From IMG/VR virus record IMGVR_UViG_3300032116_001082, positions 1 through 27,492 of that record: a stretch of 27,492 nt of DNA. One strand, given 5' to 3'. The number at the start of each line of letters is the position of its first letter. The first letter of the stretch is position 1. The position numbers and the translations under genes were made by a program. The stretch is from a virus. The notes beneath the pieces are model-generated. The model was not told the DNA's origin. It worked only from the letters and a program-made list of their open reading frames with translations, and searched no databases. This document shows positions 3,932 to 27,492 of this stretch, in pieces.

Positions 3932-4005
3932 CCCCCGTGATGCGTCTGGTTGACGCAAGGTGTCTTATAAACACCCGTAGCAAGGTTCAATTCCCTGACG
4001 GGGGA
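3932..4005 (+). tRNA. tRNA-Ile (anticodon UAU)
   Basis: 74 nt: acceptor CCCCCGT/ACGGGGG, D stem TGCG/CGCA, anticodon stem GGTGT/ACACC around loop CTTATAA (anticodon TAT), and a TTCAATT loop on a stem with one mismatch. It would read AUA directly, unlike the usual bacterial lysidine-modified CAU tRNA. CCA is not encoded. The isotype is assigned from the anticodon only. Confidence 0.8.
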
Positions 4006-4009
4006 CAGA

Positions 4010-4084
4010 GGGTGCGTAGCCCAATAGGCAGGAGGCAAGGAACTTAAAATTCCTACAGTGCGGGTTCAAGTCCCGCCGCACCCA
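4010..4084 (+). tRNA. tRNA-Leu (anticodon UAA)
   Basis: 75 nt: acceptor GGGTGCG/CGCACCC, anticodon stem AGGAA/TTCCT around CTTAAAA (anticodon TAA), T arm GCGGG-TTCAAGT-CCCGC. It starts 4 nt after the previous tRNA. The variable loop is only 5 nt, whereas bacterial tRNA-Leu normally has a long arm. CCA is not encoded. Confidence 0.85.
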
Positions 4085-4088
4085 CATA

Positions 4089-4164
4089 GGGCGTTTGGCG
4101 CAGTTGGCAGCGCAACTCGTTTACACCGAGTAGGTCGGGGGTTCAAGTCCCTCAACGCCCACCA
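4089..4164 (+). tRNA. tRNA-Val (anticodon UAC)
   Basis: 73 nt plus encoded CCA (4162-4164): acceptor GGGCGTT/AACGCCC, D stem GCGC/GCGC, anticodon stem ACTCG/CGAGT around TTTACAC (anticodon TAC), T arm GGGGG-TTCAAGT-CCCTC. It starts 4 nt after tRNA-Leu. The gap 4165-4241 holds a GGCTGC-GCGA-GCAGCC hairpin (4174-4189) without a T-run. Confidence 0.9.
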
Positions 4165-20445: not shown

Positions 20446-21006
20446 TTACGCCCCTCTAGACCGTCGCACGTTTCTGCCCACTGTGCGGGCTTTCGCTGTG
20501 TTTGCAACGAACTGACGACCCGCTTTACCTCCTGCGATTTTCTTACGATTTGTCGCCGCCTTCTCTGCCGCCGATAGGCGACGCCAAGCGGCAGCAGGCA
20601 GATACCGACGCATACCACCAGGACGATTCGCTGGCTTGCCATCCGATGTAGTCCACTTCTCACGAGTCCACTTCCTTATTTTCCGTTGGGTCTTGCCGAG
20701 TTTCCCTCGGTAGCCGCCGCCCCGCTTACGGTACTCCAGAGCCAGCAGTTGTGCCTTGCGTGCTGACCACTGTCCTGGCTTACCGCCTTTGCCTCCAGCC
20801 ATTATCTCATTCTTGAGCCTGTTGCGCAGGTCTGGCTTCGTGTACTTGAGTGACTTCGCCTCGGTCTGAGACCACAGCGACTTCTCACCCATGTCGTCCA
20901 AGCCGTCGTCATACGGCACGCCACGGGAGCCGATTTCGGGCTTGTTTAGAGAGAAGAGGTCTTGGTAGTCCTCAATGTCGTAGTCACCAGGGTCCCGCAT
21001 GTCCAT
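20446..21006 (-). CDS. DUF5872-like basic protein
   Basis: 186 residues from ATG 21006 (ATG 21000 also possible). After an acidic 60-residue start, the protein is strongly basic and matches the DUF5872-type pattern: KGGKPGQWSARKAQLLALEY, KLGKTQRKIRKWTREKWTTS, DGKPANRPGGMRRYLPAAAW, LSAAEKAATNRKK. This domain is found in phages and giant viruses, often inside or beside multidomain virion proteins; its activity is unknown and its charge suggests nucleic acid contact. Its start lies inside the end of the giant gene, so the two are co-translated. Confidence 0.8.
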   Translation of the reverse strand: MDMRDPGDYDIEDYQDLFSLNKPEIGSRGVPYDDGLDDMGEKSLWSQTEAKSLKYTKPDLRNRLKNEIMAGGKGGKPGQWSARKAQLLALEYRKRGGGYRGKLGKTQRKIRKWTREKWTTSDGKPANRPGGMRRYLPAAAWRRLSAAEKAATNRKKIAGGKAGRQFVANTAKARTVGRNVRRSRGA

Positions 21007-24000
21007 TGCTCTCAATCAGTTCATCCAGTTCATCAACAGCGTACTCTCTGTTGAACCCTTCGTCTATCTTGCCAATCTGGTAGTACATCTGCTTGGGGAT
21101 AATGACTTCATTGCCGTTGGAGAAGTCAGCCACGAACTCAACAGGGAAGTCTCCGAACATCTGGGTGAACTCCACCCATGCGTGGGGGAAGCGCAGACCC
21201 TCGGCTTCTCCGCCAGTCCCAAGGGGGACGCCGTGTACAACCCGTACATTGTCGTATGCGTTGGCTAGTTCGCGAGCCTTGTCAATGGCGGCAACGAAGC
21301 AGTCACCATCACCCTCTGTAGGCGGGGAGCCATACTCCTCCTCAAACGCTTTGTCGTAGGCACGAACGGATGGGAGGTCACCCATTCCAGACCTAGTGCT
21401 GCTCCAGAGGCCCCGTGGTTGGTCGTCCTCGTTCACGAAGTCCAACTCACTGCCCTTCCACAGTCCGTGGGCGGTGAGGCGAGCCAGCGCGTTGGGCGAC
21501 ATCTCTGATACCTGCGAGGATGACGGCGCAAAGGACTTGTTCGTGTCCTCAATGACCTCCTCGTTGGCGTAGGTGCCATGGTCGGAGTGGACTGTGCTGG
21601 TGACACCCAGTTCCATGCCTATCTTGGCGGCTAGGGCATCGGCGCCTCTCGTCTGCGAGTAGGTGTCTCCACCGAGGAATGTCGGCGTGCCATCGCCACC
21701 CAGTTCCCTGATGGCGTCCTGATACATCTTTTCCACCTCTGCCTGCGAGGTTCCTGGCTCTACCTTGAGTACACGAACAGCCTGTTTCGGCATGACGAGT
21801 GGCTGACCAGGTGTCGGGGACATGAATGTATCCACGACATAGAGGTTGTCAAGCGAGCCTGGGTTCTTGTCCATCGTCGGCTTCAGACCAGAGACGATAA
21901 TCCATCTCGGCTTCTCCCCATGCCCCGTCCTGTGCATGTGTCCAGAGACAACATGGTTGAGGGCAAAGTGTACGGTGCCACGTCCGTAGGTGTACTCACC
22001 AGTATCGTCCTGCTGTCGCCAGTCTCCGTTGGGGCGCAGGATGACATTGCCATCAGCGTCGTACTCTGGCTCAAACGAGGTCTCGTGCGTGAGCATCAAC
22101 TGGTCTGCCGTCACGCCGTCCAGACGACCGTCACTAATCTGCTTGTTTCCGCTCTGCTCCAGCCATTCGCCCGTGTCCTTCAGTCTCTGCGCCTTCAGTC
22201 GGTCTGCCTTGTCACGCCCGATGGAGGCGAGCCTCTCAAACTCCTCCATTGCGTCGGAGTCGCCACGGGAACCCGCATAGAGCAATGCCGATACATATGG
22301 TGCGACCTGTCGGGGACCACCGAAAGCCTCGCCTGCGTAGCCGTCCTCCATGAGGTGCGAGACCGCTTGGGCGAACTTCCTCGCCGTCTCCTGACCCTCT
22401 GGGCTGTTGTAGTCAAGACCAGCGATGACATACGGGTTGATTGGCAGTCTTTCTACATCATCCCCCAGTCCGAAGTCAAGGTCTACGACATCCTCTGGTG
22501 CGTCATTTCTCCAACTGGTTCCGTAGGAGACCCTGCTCGCCTCCTTCGTCGGAACGCCGAATGCGACCCTCTTGTCTCCCACCTTCCACACATCAACGGA
22601 CAGGCGAGCATCGCCAATCTGGACGGACTTCTTCTCGTCGGCGTCTCTCTGGAGGGCCCCGCGCGACAGCGTCTTCTTGACCTTCTCCACCTTGGCGAGT
22701 GGTGCGAGCGTGGATGAGCGCAAGCCCTCGTCCACGGCATTGAAACGGGATACCTTTGGTGTCGTGAGGAGGGCAAGCCTCTCCTCGTTGGAGTTGCCAC
22801 TATCCAGCCTGTCTCTGAGTTGATAGGTCATTGCCGTAGAGATGGTCTCGTCAGACGGCGACCCAGTGGAACTACGCAATCCAGTACCCTTTTCCTTGCC
22901 CTTGCCTCGCAGTTGTTCTATGACTCTGTCTACAGAGAAGGCTGGGAATGCCCTCTCTCCAGCCCACTGGTCCTGCCTGCTGTCTGGGGACTGGGCGAGC
23001 ATCTCTATCGCCCTCTTCACGGTGTGGTAATGCTCGCCATTCTCGTCGTCAATCTCCTCGTCAAGACGACCTTTGGCGACACGCTTAGCCTCAAACGAGA
23101 GTATCATGCGCTTGACGCGCTCACCTTGTTCGCGTGTAAGCACCCCCCTCTCAACAGCGATATCCGCAAGGTCGCACATGAACAGCGCATTGGAGAACTC
23201 ACCGTGGCGGTCAAAGGAGTTGCCAGCACCAAAGTGACCAAAGATGTCGTGCATGTTGAGGCGCTGATTTCTTCCCCTCTCGCTTCGCCCAAGAGCACCG
23301 AGTATTGACGGGTCACGCAATGCTTGGCGATACAGGCGAGACCATGTTGGATTGCGCTGCTCATCCTTGTCCAACTTCGTCTTGGAGAAGCCCCACTTGT
23401 CGCGCCACATTCCAGCAAGCCACTGATAGAAGGTTTCTTCTGTCTCTTGGTCGCCTCCCTCAAAGCCGACTAGACCGACATCTCGGTAGTCGGGGTCAAT
23501 ATCGCTGAACAACATGTTGCCTTCAGCGTCACGAGATACCTTTGCGATAACCCTGTCACCAATGCGTATTTCCCCGCTGTCCTCGTCTCCGACATACCTA
23601 GCGAGGTTGGCATTGATGAAGTCGGCAGTAGCCCGTGTGTCCTCTGCGTCTGGTATCTCAATGTCGTTCTTGCCGTCTACTACATCGCCAACTATTGCGC
23701 GAATCGCTGGATGTGGCTCTGCGCGCACGACTGGCATTCCATCGGACGCGACGGCGATTCTCACCGACTCATCAGCCCTCCTTGCCGTATTGGCGTCCAG
23801 TTCACCGTTGTAGTCACCCGTTGCCCTGCTCTTGAACTCTCCCACCATTTCAGCGAGAACGCCCTCAACATGGTCGGGGATGATGCCTAGACCCTCGGCT
23901 ATTTCCTCAATCTCTACCTCTGTGTCGTCATTGGGGACGAACACGGACGACCGCAGACCCTTGCTCTTGTCCCGCTCTACGGTCTCCCGCGCCCATCCGA

Positions 24001-27000
24001 GCCACGCTTGACGCGCACGGTCGGAGTCCTCTCGCGGATACGCGAGCGTCGCTACTGGCTCTACTGAACCAAACTCACCTTCACGAACGCGCTTTCTCTT
24101 GACGACATGGATACCCGCGTCGCCCTCGCCATCGGCAGCGCGCCACACGGCTGTCGCGATTGGCTGCTGGTCACCCGTGGGATTGACTGTCGTCGCGCTA
24201 CGAATCGGCTCTCCGAACGACACCATGTAGTCGTAGTCGTCGTCCGAGAAGATTTCCTCCCTGTCGTCCCTGCTGAGAGCGAGTGTGGAGCGAGAAAGGT
24301 CGTCTAGGCGCGTCAGGACGCGCTGGTCCATCACGATGTCGTCAAACTCCTCATATGTGGGGTCGGCAATCTGACGGCGTTCCAGTGTCCTGCGGTCAAG
24401 GGCGACCAACCGCTCCGTTTCGTCAGCGAAATCGCGCGCGCGCTTGATTTGGTCGTCTACATCGGCAAGGAGTTGCTCTTTCCAGCCATTGCGGTCAATA
24501 TCTTCCTTGGAAATGTTCGCTGGGGTGCGATTCGGGGTCACGGACACTCCGATGTCTGCCCCGTCCCATGAGCCGTCCTCTTCCAGTCTCTTGCGCGCCT
24601 CTTCCAGTTGTGAGACGCGCTTGCGAGCGCCAGCAACCTGCGTCTCGCTCTCCTCAATGCTTCCCGCGAGCATTTGGTCGTTCTGACGCACCCGCGAGTA
24701 CGCAATACCCGTGTTGGTGGACGAGCGCATACCGAGGCGCTCCTCTCTGTCCACGGTTCTGTACGGCTGGTCTGGTGACGGTAGTTTCCCGAACTGCTTG
24801 GCGCCCTTCTTCGCCCTCTCTCTATCCACGAGGGCGATGAGGCGGTGATTTCTCACCCGTGAGGCTTGCGAGACGACAGAGAGCCTCTCGTAGAGACTGT
24901 CATCGCCCCTGAACGCCTCTGCGAGCCATGTGGCGTGTCCAAACGCGACGGAATGCTGACCGTTGGCTATTTCCTCAATGGGTACCCATTGGAATCCACG
25001 AGCATCGTCACCTGCCTTCGGCTGTACATCCGACGATACATCCATACGGATACCCGCGATACGACCGCCCTCCACGAAGCGCGGGTCCCAGTCCTTTGCT
25101 TCCACTTCTCCGAGTAGCGTCGTTCCAATCGCGTCGGTTTCAGCGATACTGACTTCCTCGGTAGCCTCGCGCACCGCTGAACGGTCAAGAGACTCATCGC
25201 CCTCTCGCATTCCCCCTGGGAGGGATAGTGCGCCCCTGAATGGACCGCTCTTGCGTTCTATCATGAGGACTTCTGGTCCGTTTTCGCCCTGACGCACGAT
25301 GACGGCGTCGCCAGCCTCTACGCGCGAGGTCTTGGACAATGACCAGTCATTGGACGACCACTCAACATCGTCAGCGTCCTGCGATGTGTCCCTGAACGGG
25401 CGTAGGTCCACGCCGAGAGTCTGCGCGCGTCTGTCAATATCCACCCGTGAGCGCAATCCGCCGACTTCTGGCGGGTATGTCGGTGAGAGTGCCATGTTCG
25501 GCGCATCGTCTCTTTCGGGTGCTGATGTGGACGAACGCACGCCACTTGCTCGCCTCTCCCACGGTTTCTCTGGTCTACCGTCAGGACCAGTAGGTATGCC
25601 CATCGTTCTCGCGAGGACATCTTCCATCTCTGGACTCAGTAGTTCACGAGATGCCCGCTTTCTTGCGAACAGCGAAAGAACCGACTCTGCCCATGTCTCC
25701 TGTGGGCTAGTGAGAGCGTAAAGGCTGTACACCCGTGGCAGCCCTTCTCTTTCCAGAATTGACCACGTCGCTTGTGGACGGTGAAGCAAATTGGGTAATT
25801 CAGTACCTGGCGGTAATGCCTGCTCAAATGCTTGTAATCCCATAGTATTCAGTAAGAGTTTTCCATCTTTTCCAGCCATAAACAGGAATCCAGGCTCTGA
25901 TGATTTCCCTCGTGGCGAACGTACCAGTTTCCATATGTTTGCCCTTTCAGCAAGTTCGCTGATGTATGACAAAACATCATAATCGCTTCCAGCAAGACCA
26001 ATCTCTTTGAGTCTGGCTGACAATTCCCTTGTGTCAAATAGAGTTTCCTTCCTGATGTATCTATCTGCCCACATGATGGGAACTTTTCTGAATAGTCTTC
26101 CTCTGTCGCGACGGCGTGTCCCTGCGGTGTTGTGCCTGAATGTTTCCCTGAGATAAACACGGAGATTATCCAATTCCTGTTTAGTGAATAGACCAGAAGC
26201 AAGAATCCTTTCCTCTGGAGTATTGCTGATGAGGTCATACAGAAAGTGTCCCCACTCGTGTACGAGAACATCTTGTGGCTCGCCAGCGGCATTGTGAAAT
26301 ATTCCTTCTGGACGAAACTCTTGTCTCTCACCCGTGATGGGGTCGGTCTTCGGTGAGTAGTCCCACAAATCTGGGTTATCTCTGCCGACTCCATGCGGAA
26401 TGGTCGGGTCGTTCGTGTCTGGACCGTTAGTTGGTCCATCTGGGTTCCTTGGAGGTGCGCCTGGTCGCCAGCCCGCTTCGTTGGTATTGATAGCCATCAT
26501 GCCAAGACCAGGGAAGTACCATGCCGACGCTCCTTTGGCAGTCGGGTCTCGTCTGTCGTCAACTTTACCGTGTGGGTCTGGCAGCCCGCCCTCTTTTGCT
26601 CTTTTGTTGTATGCGCGACTCACGCCATGAATCGGTGGTATTCCAAATGTCCTTACTGCCCAAGCAAATGCTGGGTTTTCCCTAAGTGCCGCAATGAGTG
26701 CTTCTCTTGCTTGTTGCTGTGCGTCTGGCGAGAAATCCATCAAGTATGAGATATGCTTTTGCTTGTACATGTCAAGGTTTCTCTGTACATGCTGCGCCAT
26801 TTCGCTAGCAATTGCCACTTCTGCGTTATTCATTTCGTCTATCGCATCAACCAATAGAGTTATGTCTTGAAGGTTTACGCCATCTGCGAGTGCGTCATTT
26901 ATTGCCTTCTCTAACTCTGGGATGAGTCCATCAACCGCAAACTGTCCTTCTCGTGAGAAGTTCATTTGCGTGAGACTTAGTGCGTTCTCGTATGACTCTT

Positions 27001-27492
27001 CAGACATGTATGGCATCAGCGATGGCAGCATCTGCCCTAATGCCTTCATGCCTCTCTGTATTTTCGGGTCACTCATATCTGCGCCAAGTAGCAAGTGACC
27101 ATGAAGCGCATGTGCGGACGCTATCGCATAGTCAAGAGGTGATGTTGCTATTACTACATCTGCTATCTCTTCATCGGATAGTTCGGCAAGCCAGTTGAGC
27201 GTGCGATACTGCGGCTCTGATGGATGGGGAAACAAGTCTCTTGCCCTACCCGTGAGCCTTGTGCTTGTGCCACCTAATGCTCTACCATCAACTTTGTATG
27301 GGTGCTGTGTCTTGGTGATGAGTCCTTTGCGATGTCCTGTCGGCTTGACGACTGATGACCTGAGACCTGTGAGTGAACGACGCTCTGCCTGCGTTCTCTC
27401 AATGTCGTCTCTGCGTGTACGCCTGCGTGAGGTAGGTGCTTGTGTCTCTTGTGTGCCTGTTACCCGTTGGTCACCCGTGGGTGCCTGCGGAA
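20984..27492 (-). CDS. Giant multidomain (polyvalent-type) protein, partial
   Basis: At least 2168 residues; the frame is open to the window edge, so the true start lies outside and the TTG at 27235 is not it. Modules from the N-terminal side: a helical region; a zincin metallopeptidase with HEWGH (26246-26260) and a later ETWAE; a Nudix hydrolase with the full G-x5-E-x7-RE-x2-EE box (about 25145-25215); an acidic coiled-coil region; a module with LNMHDIFGHFG (about 23230-23260); a module with TVHFALNHVVSGHMH; and a C-terminal papain-like peptidase (Cys codon 21299, HAWVE His 21182). Eight G(L/V/M)RSS-type motifs lie between modules. Such multi-enzyme proteins are known from phages and conjugative elements. 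DNA coding for the N-terminal third (from about 25.75 kb) looks less GC-rich. Confidence 0.88.
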   Translation of the reverse strand, partial: PQAPTGDQRVTGTQETQAPTSRRRTRRDDIERTQAERRSLTGLRSSVVKPTGHRKGLITKTQHPYKVDGRALGGTSTRLTGRARDLFPHPSEPQYRTLNWLAELSDEEIADVVIATSPLDYAIASAHALHGHLLLGADMSDPKIQRGMKALGQMLPSLMPYMSEESYENALSLTQMNFSREGQFAVDGLIPELEKAINDALADGVNLQDITLLVDAIDEMNNAEVAIASEMAQHVQRNLDMYKQKHISYLMDFSPDAQQQAREALIAALRENPAFAWAVRTFGIPPIHGVSRAYNKRAKEGGLPDPHGKVDDRRDPTAKGASAWYFPGLGMMAINTNEAGWRPGAPPRNPDGPTNGPDTNDPTIPHGVGRDNPDLWDYSPKTDPITGERQEFRPEGIFHNAAGEPQDVLVHEWGHFLYDLISNTPEERILASGLFTKQELDNLRVYLRETFRHNTAGTRRRDRGRLFRKVPIMWADRYIRKETLFDTRELSARLKEIGLAGSDYDVLSYISELAERANIWKLVRSPRGKSSEPGFLFMAGKDGKLLLNTMGLQAFEQALPPGTELPNLLHRPQATWSILEREGLPRVYSLYALTSPQETWAESVLSLFARKRASRELLSPEMEDVLARTMGIPTGPDGRPEKPWERRASGVRSSTSAPERDDAPNMALSPTYPPEVGGLRSRVDIDRRAQTLGVDLRPFRDTSQDADDVEWSSNDWSLSKTSRVEAGDAVIVRQGENGPEVLMIERKSGPFRGALSLPGGMREGDESLDRSAVREATEEVSIAETDAIGTTLLGEVEAKDWDPRFVEGGRIAGIRMDVSSDVQPKAGDDARGFQWVPIEEIANGQHSVAFGHATWLAEAFRGDDSLYERLSVVSQASRVRNHRLIALVDRERAKKGAKQFGKLPSPDQPYRTVDREERLGMRSSTNTGIAYSRVRQNDQMLAGSIEESETQVAGARKRVSQLEEARKRLEEDGSWDGADIGVSVTPNRTPANISKEDIDRNGWKEQLLADVDDQIKRARDFADETERLVALDRRTLERRQIADPTYEEFDDIVMDQRVLTRLDDLSRSTLALSRDDREEIFSDDDYDYMVSFGEPIRSATTVNPTGDQQPIATAVWRAADGEGDAGIHVVKRKRVREGEFGSVEPVATLAYPREDSDRARQAWLGWARETVERDKSKGLRSSVFVPNDDTEVEIEEIAEGLGIIPDHVEGVLAEMVGEFKSRATGDYNGELDANTARRADESVRIAVASDGMPVVRAEPHPAIRAIVGDVVDGKNDIEIPDAEDTRATADFINANLARYVGDEDSGEIRIGDRVIAKVSRDAEGNMLFSDIDPDYRDVGLVGFEGGDQETEETFYQWLAGMWRDKWGFSKTKLDKDEQRNPTWSRLYRQALRDPSILGALGRSERGRNQRLNMHDIFGHFGAGNSFDRHGEFSNALFMCDLADIAVERGVLTREQGERVKRMILSFEAKRVAKGRLDEEIDDENGEHYHTVKRAIEMLAQSPDSRQDQWAGERAFPAFSVDRVIEQLRGKGKEKGTGLRSSTGSPSDETISTAMTYQLRDRLDSGNSNEERLALLTTPKVSRFNAVDEGLRSSTLAPLAKVEKVKKTLSRGALQRDADEKKSVQIGDARLSVDVWKVGDKRVAFGVPTKEASRVSYGTSWRNDAPEDVVDLDFGLGDDVERLPINPYVIAGLDYNSPEGQETARKFAQAVSHLMEDGYAGEAFGGPRQVAPYVSALLYAGSRGDSDAMEEFERLASIGRDKADRLKAQRLKDTGEWLEQSGNKQISDGRLDGVTADQLMLTHETSFEPEYDADGNVILRPNGDWRQQDDTGEYTYGRGTVHFALNHVVSGHMHRTGHGEKPRWIIVSGLKPTMDKNPGSLDNLYVVDTFMSPTPGQPLVMPKQAVRVLKVEPGTSQAEVEKMYQDAIRELGGDGTPTFLGGDTYSQTRGADALAAKIGMELGVTSTVHSDHGTYANEEVIEDTNKSFAPSSSQVSEMSPNALARLTAHGLWKGSELDFVNEDDQPRGLWSSTRSGMGDLPSVRAYDKAFEEEYGSPPTEGDGDCFVAAIDKARELANAYDNVRVVHGVPLGTGGEAEGLRFPHAWVEFTQMFGDFPVEFVADFSNGNEVIIPKQMYYQIGKIDEGFNREYAVDELDELIESNGHAGPW

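Follow-up and report, generated by a model that had tools for sequence, protein, structure and literature searches.

A short peptide recurs eight times along a giant protein of an uncultured phage, and the question is what it does there. The protein is encoded in IMG/VR record IMGVR_UViG_3300032116_001082, a fragment of 27,492 bases that ends within the giant gene; we refer to this whole stretch of DNA as the window. The gene is a frame of 2168 codons that is open at its 5′ end, which lies off the contig (20984..27490, minus strand), and it has an orthologue in a related contig, G005. The sequence-only reading of the window had proposed that the peptide is a cleavage site that divides a polyprotein or, failing that, a recombination-friendly linker. 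We consider it likely that the motif, G-[LVM]-R-S-S, is the window phage's flavor of a cleavage site for its own Peptidase_S78 prohead protease. This explanation is favored because related phages share a lineage-specific motif between the tail of the protease and their other giant proteins.

Motif copies lie between the modules of the giant protein

All eight copies that had been reported are present in the minus-strand frame of the giant gene. They are as follows, where the last entry of each line is the alignment or structural context, if any.

27353..27367, minus strand: site 1, GLRSS at residue 42, read from the sequence
25529..25543, minus strand: site 2, GVRSS at residue 650, aligns with GLASS 1137 of G005
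25445..25459, minus strand: site 3, GLRSR at residue 678, aligns with GLASS 1502 of G005
24719..24733, minus strand: site 4, GMRSS at residue 920, aligns with GLVSA 1747 of G005
23945..23959, minus strand: site 5, GLRSS at residue 1178, aligns with GLAST 2338 of G005
22868..22882, minus strand: site 6, GLRSS at residue 1537, in a segment with predicted local distance difference test (pLDDT) below 50
22712..22726, minus strand: site 7, GLRSS at residue 1589, in a segment with pLDDT below 50
21398..21412, minus strand: site 8, GLWSS at residue 2027, in a segment with pLDDT below 50

The pattern G[LVM]RS[SR] fits seven of the eight copies. When the whole protein is shuffled, this pattern occurs a mean of 0.03 times, and when 100-residue blocks are shuffled, a mean of 0.025 times, with a maximum of one copy in both cases versus the seven observed. 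GLRSS by itself accounts for four copies, and any exact 5-mer reaches at most two copies in shuffles. The residue right after the motif, which had been noted to be T or V, is T in five copies and V in three, and P occurs three residues further on in five of the eight. Elsewhere in the window, six-frame matches are few, dispersed and never repeated inside one gene.

The giant protein contains several distinct modules, including an enzyme: it has a Pfam Nudix domain, and modules that are homologous to those of other phages. The motif copies separate these modules.

25544..27367, minus strand: zincin-like module 1, residues 42-649, with HEWGH at residues 411-415; HExxH by sequence
25460..25543, minus strand: 28-residue interval (650-677), where G005 has an extra module of ~365 residues between its motifs
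24734..25459, minus strand: Nudix module, residues 678-919; Pfam NUDIX match, 54% identity with its G005 counterpart
23960..24733, minus strand: helical (coiled-coil-like) module, residues 920-1177; AlphaFold2 model and G005 alignment
22883..23959, minus strand: HDxFGHFG module, residues 1178-1536; its homologue in G005 is the HDVWGH module
21413..22726, minus strand: VHFALNH module, residues 1589-2026; homologues in G001, G004 and tape-measure-like proteins
20987..21412, minus strand: C-terminal papain-like module (GDGDCF...HAWVE), residues 2027-2168; recognized by inspection, no Pfam match

The inter-module placement that had been claimed is directly observed: the sole Pfam domain of the protein, NUDIX at residues 729-852 (E-value 7.2e-12), is wholly between the sites at residues 678 and 920. 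The piece lengths originally given need one minor correction, in that the last piece comprises 142 residues from the G of GLWSS, not 138. Module 1, which has no Pfam match, is weakly homologous to the third of the HEWxH modules in G005. For the VHFALNH region, Foldseek found nothing significant in the PDB. Two AlphaFold2 models cover seven of the eight sites, and all seven are in segments with pLDDT below 50, which comprise ~45% of residues; these models are shallow, with alignment depths of 5 and 7 sequences.

The motif accompanies a prohead protease

Searching with DNA patterns of the VHFALNH module, we found a contig of 84 kb, G001, that also carries GLRSS. This contig encodes a 2455-residue protein with 12 G[LMV]RS sites, whose N-terminal part is a Peptidase_S78 domain (PF04586, E-value 1.5e-11, 45.1 bits versus a cut-off of 21) that also matches the head maturation proteases of PHROG 80 (E-value 1.8e-29). 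In G001, the motif is also found five times in a 1947-residue protein related to that of the window, twice in one of 1212 residues, three times in the tape measure protein, and once in a 596-residue protein, just ahead of a zeta-toxin-like domain. The Pfam domains that were detected fall between motif sites.

The S78 tail of G001 (L034:10729-18093) also has several near-repeat helix-turn-helix-like segments, which match Sigma70_r4, with motifs between them. If the sites are cut, these segments would become small free DNA-binding proteins.

These proteins bear on the question of which peptidase would cut the motif. The sequence-only reading pointed to the peptidases embedded in the giant protein itself, i.e., the zincin-like or the papain-like module would cut the chain before packaging or after injection. 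The chain does hold both candidates, and autoproteolysis by embedded metallopeptidases is suggested for polyvalent proteins by Iyer et al. 2017 (PMC5512222). However, the motif also bounds modules in proteins with no recognized zincin or papain-like domain, such as S78 tails and the zeta-toxin-like protein of G001. Moreover, S78 is the peptidase that is present in every compared genome, and the flavor of the motif tracks S78. Genome comparison strongly backs the proposal that the motif is where a polyprotein is cleaved, but we regard it as unlikely that the embedded peptidases are what cuts it.

Protease tails and cargo share lineage-specific flavors

A search of IMG/VR with the S78 domain gave a close relative in at least 580 stretches, among the 600 matches listed; 80 stretches from this search were kept, and the results below come from the portion of the encoding stretches that we examined. 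Many S78 prohead proteases in uncultured phages are fused to long, motif-studded tails of up to ~3,800 residues. In an unbiased search, the top repeated four-letter pattern in these tails is usually a variant of one theme, with the flavors GLRS, GMRSR, GMAS, GLAS, GFAS, GFxSxT, [RK]LSSG, GLSSG and FSSG. The flavor differs from phage to phage, and LSGxM, in a contig called G083, is a further one. A tree built from 41 S78 domains accounts for the flavor labels with 8 changes, versus 24 when the labels are shuffled.

We compared the flavor of each S78 tail to that of other proteins of at least 550 residues in the same genome. For 10 of the 11 genomes that allowed this test, the flavor of the tail is the dominant flavor of the other large proteins. 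Open reading frames below 550 residues contain few motif copies, with 19 in all 15 genomes. The motif, which had been suggested as something to look for in giant proteins of other phages, therefore does occur in several genomes, in the form of lineage-specific flavors.

The cultured phages with the nearest S78 proteases served as a negative control. No repeated motif of this kind was found in these phages, namely Gordonia phages DalanDe, GMA6, Chidiebere and ScarletRaider, Brevibacterium phage Cantare and Streptomyces phage Gilgamesh. Similarly, in L189 and L190, which derive from a marine-type metagenome-assembled genome and have S78 without a long tail, the giant neighboring proteins also have no repeated motif. 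The S78 tails of L114 and L121 (~2560 and ~3320 residues) have no motif of a common flavor, and their top pattern is SSRS-like; these repeats may represent a further flavor.

Homologous boundaries keep the motif while its flavor changes

Synteny links the window to contig G005 (132 kb): their helicases are 78% identical and their primases 57%, and at the same position G005 encodes a 3112-residue orthologue of the giant protein. Four boundaries align motif to motif between the two proteins, where the form of the motif in G005 is GLAS or GLVS.

Boundary 1: KPWERRASGVRSST in the window, KPWEARQGLASSS in G005
Boundary 2: VGGLRSR in the window, IGGLASS in G005
Boundary 3: RLGMRSST in the window, RTGLVSAS in G005
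Boundary 4: DKSKGLRSSV in the window, DKERRRGGLAST in G005

The S78 tail of G005 contains GxAS nine times and GxRS not at all, so in this genome also the tail and the cargo share one flavor. Boundaries 1 and 2 are 28 residues apart in the window versus ~365 in G005, and it therefore seems that a whole module has been inserted or deleted precisely from one motif to the next.

The G005 orthologue (G005 28355-37690; L147:8358-17690) contains three consecutive HEWxH zincin-like modules with GLAS motifs between them. At its C-terminus, it has a module matching DUF3626 where the window protein has the VHFALNH and papain-like modules.

Boundaries without the motif would have told against a polyprotein cut at this site, but the closest relative, G005, retains it. 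The more distant orthologue, in G083 (L183), has neither GLRSS nor GLAS, and its cargo instead repeats LSG[SEK][MI]. We inspected the G083 S78 tail only after the flavor of its cargo had been read, and the prediction from the cargo held: the tail has three copies of LSG[AS]M (shuffle mean 0.02; 0 of 20,000 shuffles reach three). LSG[AS]M is also present three times in a second G083 protein, of 1849 residues.

The apparent gain or loss of a module between motifs is what might be expected of a recombination-friendly DNA linker, or of a remnant of module duplication, without any role for the peptide. However, the motif copies are only 59% identical as DNA, their 30-base flanks are 27-29% identical, and single motif positions use three glycine codons and four serine codons across the copies. 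This codon diversity implies selection on a conserved peptide rather than a DNA repeat, and the peptide is retained at homologous boundaries while its flavor changes. We therefore rejected repetition or recombination at the DNA level on the codon evidence, and consider this explanation as a whole very unlikely. Modules do nevertheless seem to be gained or lost between motifs.

A candidate packaging element and the proposed pathway

Across the compared genomes, 14 proteins, some of them S78 proteins, share a conserved element, DxDGDG(x)nQ[ED]xTxFxRP. This calcium-site-like element is found in cargo and protease polyproteins of G001, G003, G005, G007, G009, G013, G018, G031 and G083, and in G001 it matches PHROG 7924, which is annotated as unknown function. 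In the S78 protein of G083, the element is degenerate. It is upstream of the first motif in all 13 proteins that have both. A reasonable guess, and no more, is that the element is a packaging tag that is removed by cutting.

This element is relevant to another possible role of the motif, in which it would remain uncut and act as a docking or retention signal, e.g., by binding the scaffold or inner capsid surface, with the cargo packed by means of many weak contacts. A motif that is repeated in flexible linkers and common to the protease-scaffold tail and the cargo is compatible with such a role, and co-evolving binding partners would also yield matching flavors. However, the motif is between modules rather than inside them and is repeated at both ends, and the DxDGDG element, given its position, is more likely than the motif to be a packaging tag. 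We find a docking role quite unlikely.

If the S78 protease does cut the motif, the following pathway can be proposed. The giant protein, which is predicted to be a packaged (polyvalent) polyprotein, would be packed into the procapsid; both its packaging and its injection are suggested by the shared motif and by the DxDGDG element of G005 and G001. During head maturation, the S78 protease would cut the protein at motifs in flexible linkers, and the zincin, Nudix, helical, HDxFGH, VHFALNH and papain-like modules would be freed as separate internal proteins that enter the host along with the ejected DNA. In relatives, the protease itself is the leading part of a polyprotein punctuated in the same way. 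What the sequences show is the motif, its placement between modules, its conservation with changing flavor, and the agreement of flavor between protease tail and cargo; we infer cutting by S78, the presence of the proteins inside the procapsid and injection of the freed modules. More broadly, there is a reasonable chance, better than even, that a large, apparently uncultured group of tailed phages uses an S78-headed giant chain and several giant cargo proteins that are cut in the procapsid, with a motif that drifts along with the protease; many small internal and injected proteins would thereby be freed, as cassettes that can be swapped from site to site.

Capsid proteins, tape measures and points that weigh against S78 cleavage

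Of 30 contigs that were searched, 15 have an HK97-fold capsid gene, G001 among them, and the capsid protein matches HK97 capsid chains in the PDB (E-value about 1e-54); no capsid gene was found in 50 further, mostly short contigs. In many genomes, the major capsid protein, which is the usual S78 substrate, has a motif-like sequence where its delta-like region ends: GLGS in G001 and G016, SLGS in G005, and QLSS, HLSS or QLTS in the LSSG and FSSG types. The likeness of this capsid boundary to the motif is suggestive only.

Several observations weigh against the S78 explanation. Cleavage at the motif is deduced rather than observed, and the S78 gene of the window phage is off the contig, although the syntenic G005 has one with a GLAS tail. 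In the flavor comparison, a permutation reached the observed total once in 20,000, but this overstates independence, as these are related genomes and not 11 independent trials, though the tree does require several flavor changes. One genome, G031, is discordant, with GFxS in its S78 tail and mostly GxAS in its cargo, and a clear motif is missing in some S78 tails. There is no motif-like capsid sequence in G007, G006, G010, G013 or G031, and the capsid comparison is confounded by relatedness. Finally, the tape measure of G001 has sites, yet tails assemble outside the head.

A few motifs of the phage's own flavor are present in the tape measures of G001 (53592-57620) and G005 (89101-93669). These sites fail to align between the two proteins and are absent from the tape measure of G003, so nothing rests on them. 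The VHFALNH module is also found, by inspection, in very large tape-measure-like proteins of L009, L012, L013 and L005, where the GLRSS motif is absent from its flanks. This distribution suggests an injected domain that is shared.

Relation to known systems

The HK97 prohead protease is a small separate protein that acts mainly on the capsid protein. In the phages analyzed here, by contrast, the protease is the leading part of a giant polyprotein with repeated motifs and apparently has many sites in several other giant proteins. The similarities are that the relatives have a protease of the same Peptidase_S78 family and HK97-fold capsid genes, and that the HK97 protease cuts the delta domain of the capsid protein at K103/S104 in an unstructured part (PMC10275583), which fits a linker motif.

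In the giant Salmonella phage SPN3US, head and ejection proteins are processed by the head protease, gp245, which cuts several internal head proteins at a recognizable motif, and one propeptide can hold several cut motifs; self-cleavage aside, the identified cuts yield N-terminal propeptides (PMC10052503). The sites described here differ in that they part several folded modules. The SPN3US protease belongs to another branch.

Polyvalent proteins of phages and plasmids are multidomain proteins with zincin-like and other enzymatic domains that are predicted to be packaged and injected (Iyer et al. 2017, PMC5512222). The window protein is likewise multidomain, with a candidate zincin-like module and other enzymatic modules, and is also predicted to be packaged and injected. 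However, that paper proposes release by embedded peptidases, and no lineage-specific motif shared with a prohead protease was found in the passages considered here. The paper also draws an analogy to the polyproteins of eukaryotic RNA viruses, in which many functions are similarly freed from one chain by a viral protease. The difference is that the cutter here would be a capsid-maturation protease, a separate protein that is presumably inside the procapsid.

Polyvalent proteins and the processing of internal proteins by a head protease (SPN3US, PMC10052503) are therefore already known. What is apparently new is an S78 protease that heads a polyprotein, together with a lineage-specific cut motif common to its cargo, for which we found no prior description; in open-licence papers, no description of the motif was found. 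If our explanation is true, giant phage proteins that are otherwise unannotated would gain a cut-site code that can be read directly, and the products of hundreds of metagenomic phages would be predictable from their sequences. Capsid-maturation proteases would serve as general polyprotein processors whose specificity drifts in step with dozens of sites, and injected effectors would be exchangeable as cassettes between cut sites.

The phage and its likely host

The plus strand of the window carries the replication genes helicase, ThyX, SSB and primase, and the window also encodes a WhiB-like regulator. The isolates nearest to two window proteins are phages of Arthrobacter, Mycobacterium, Streptomyces and Gordonia, which, with the WhiB gene, suggests an actinobacterial host. 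A scan of genome contigs yielded only contigs of metagenome-assembled genomes with mixed labels, which did not point to a particular host. A tblastn search with the whole giant protein and two parts of it gave no match in 50,697 phage records. Three tandem tRNA genes (Ile, Leu and Val) are located at window positions 3932-4164.

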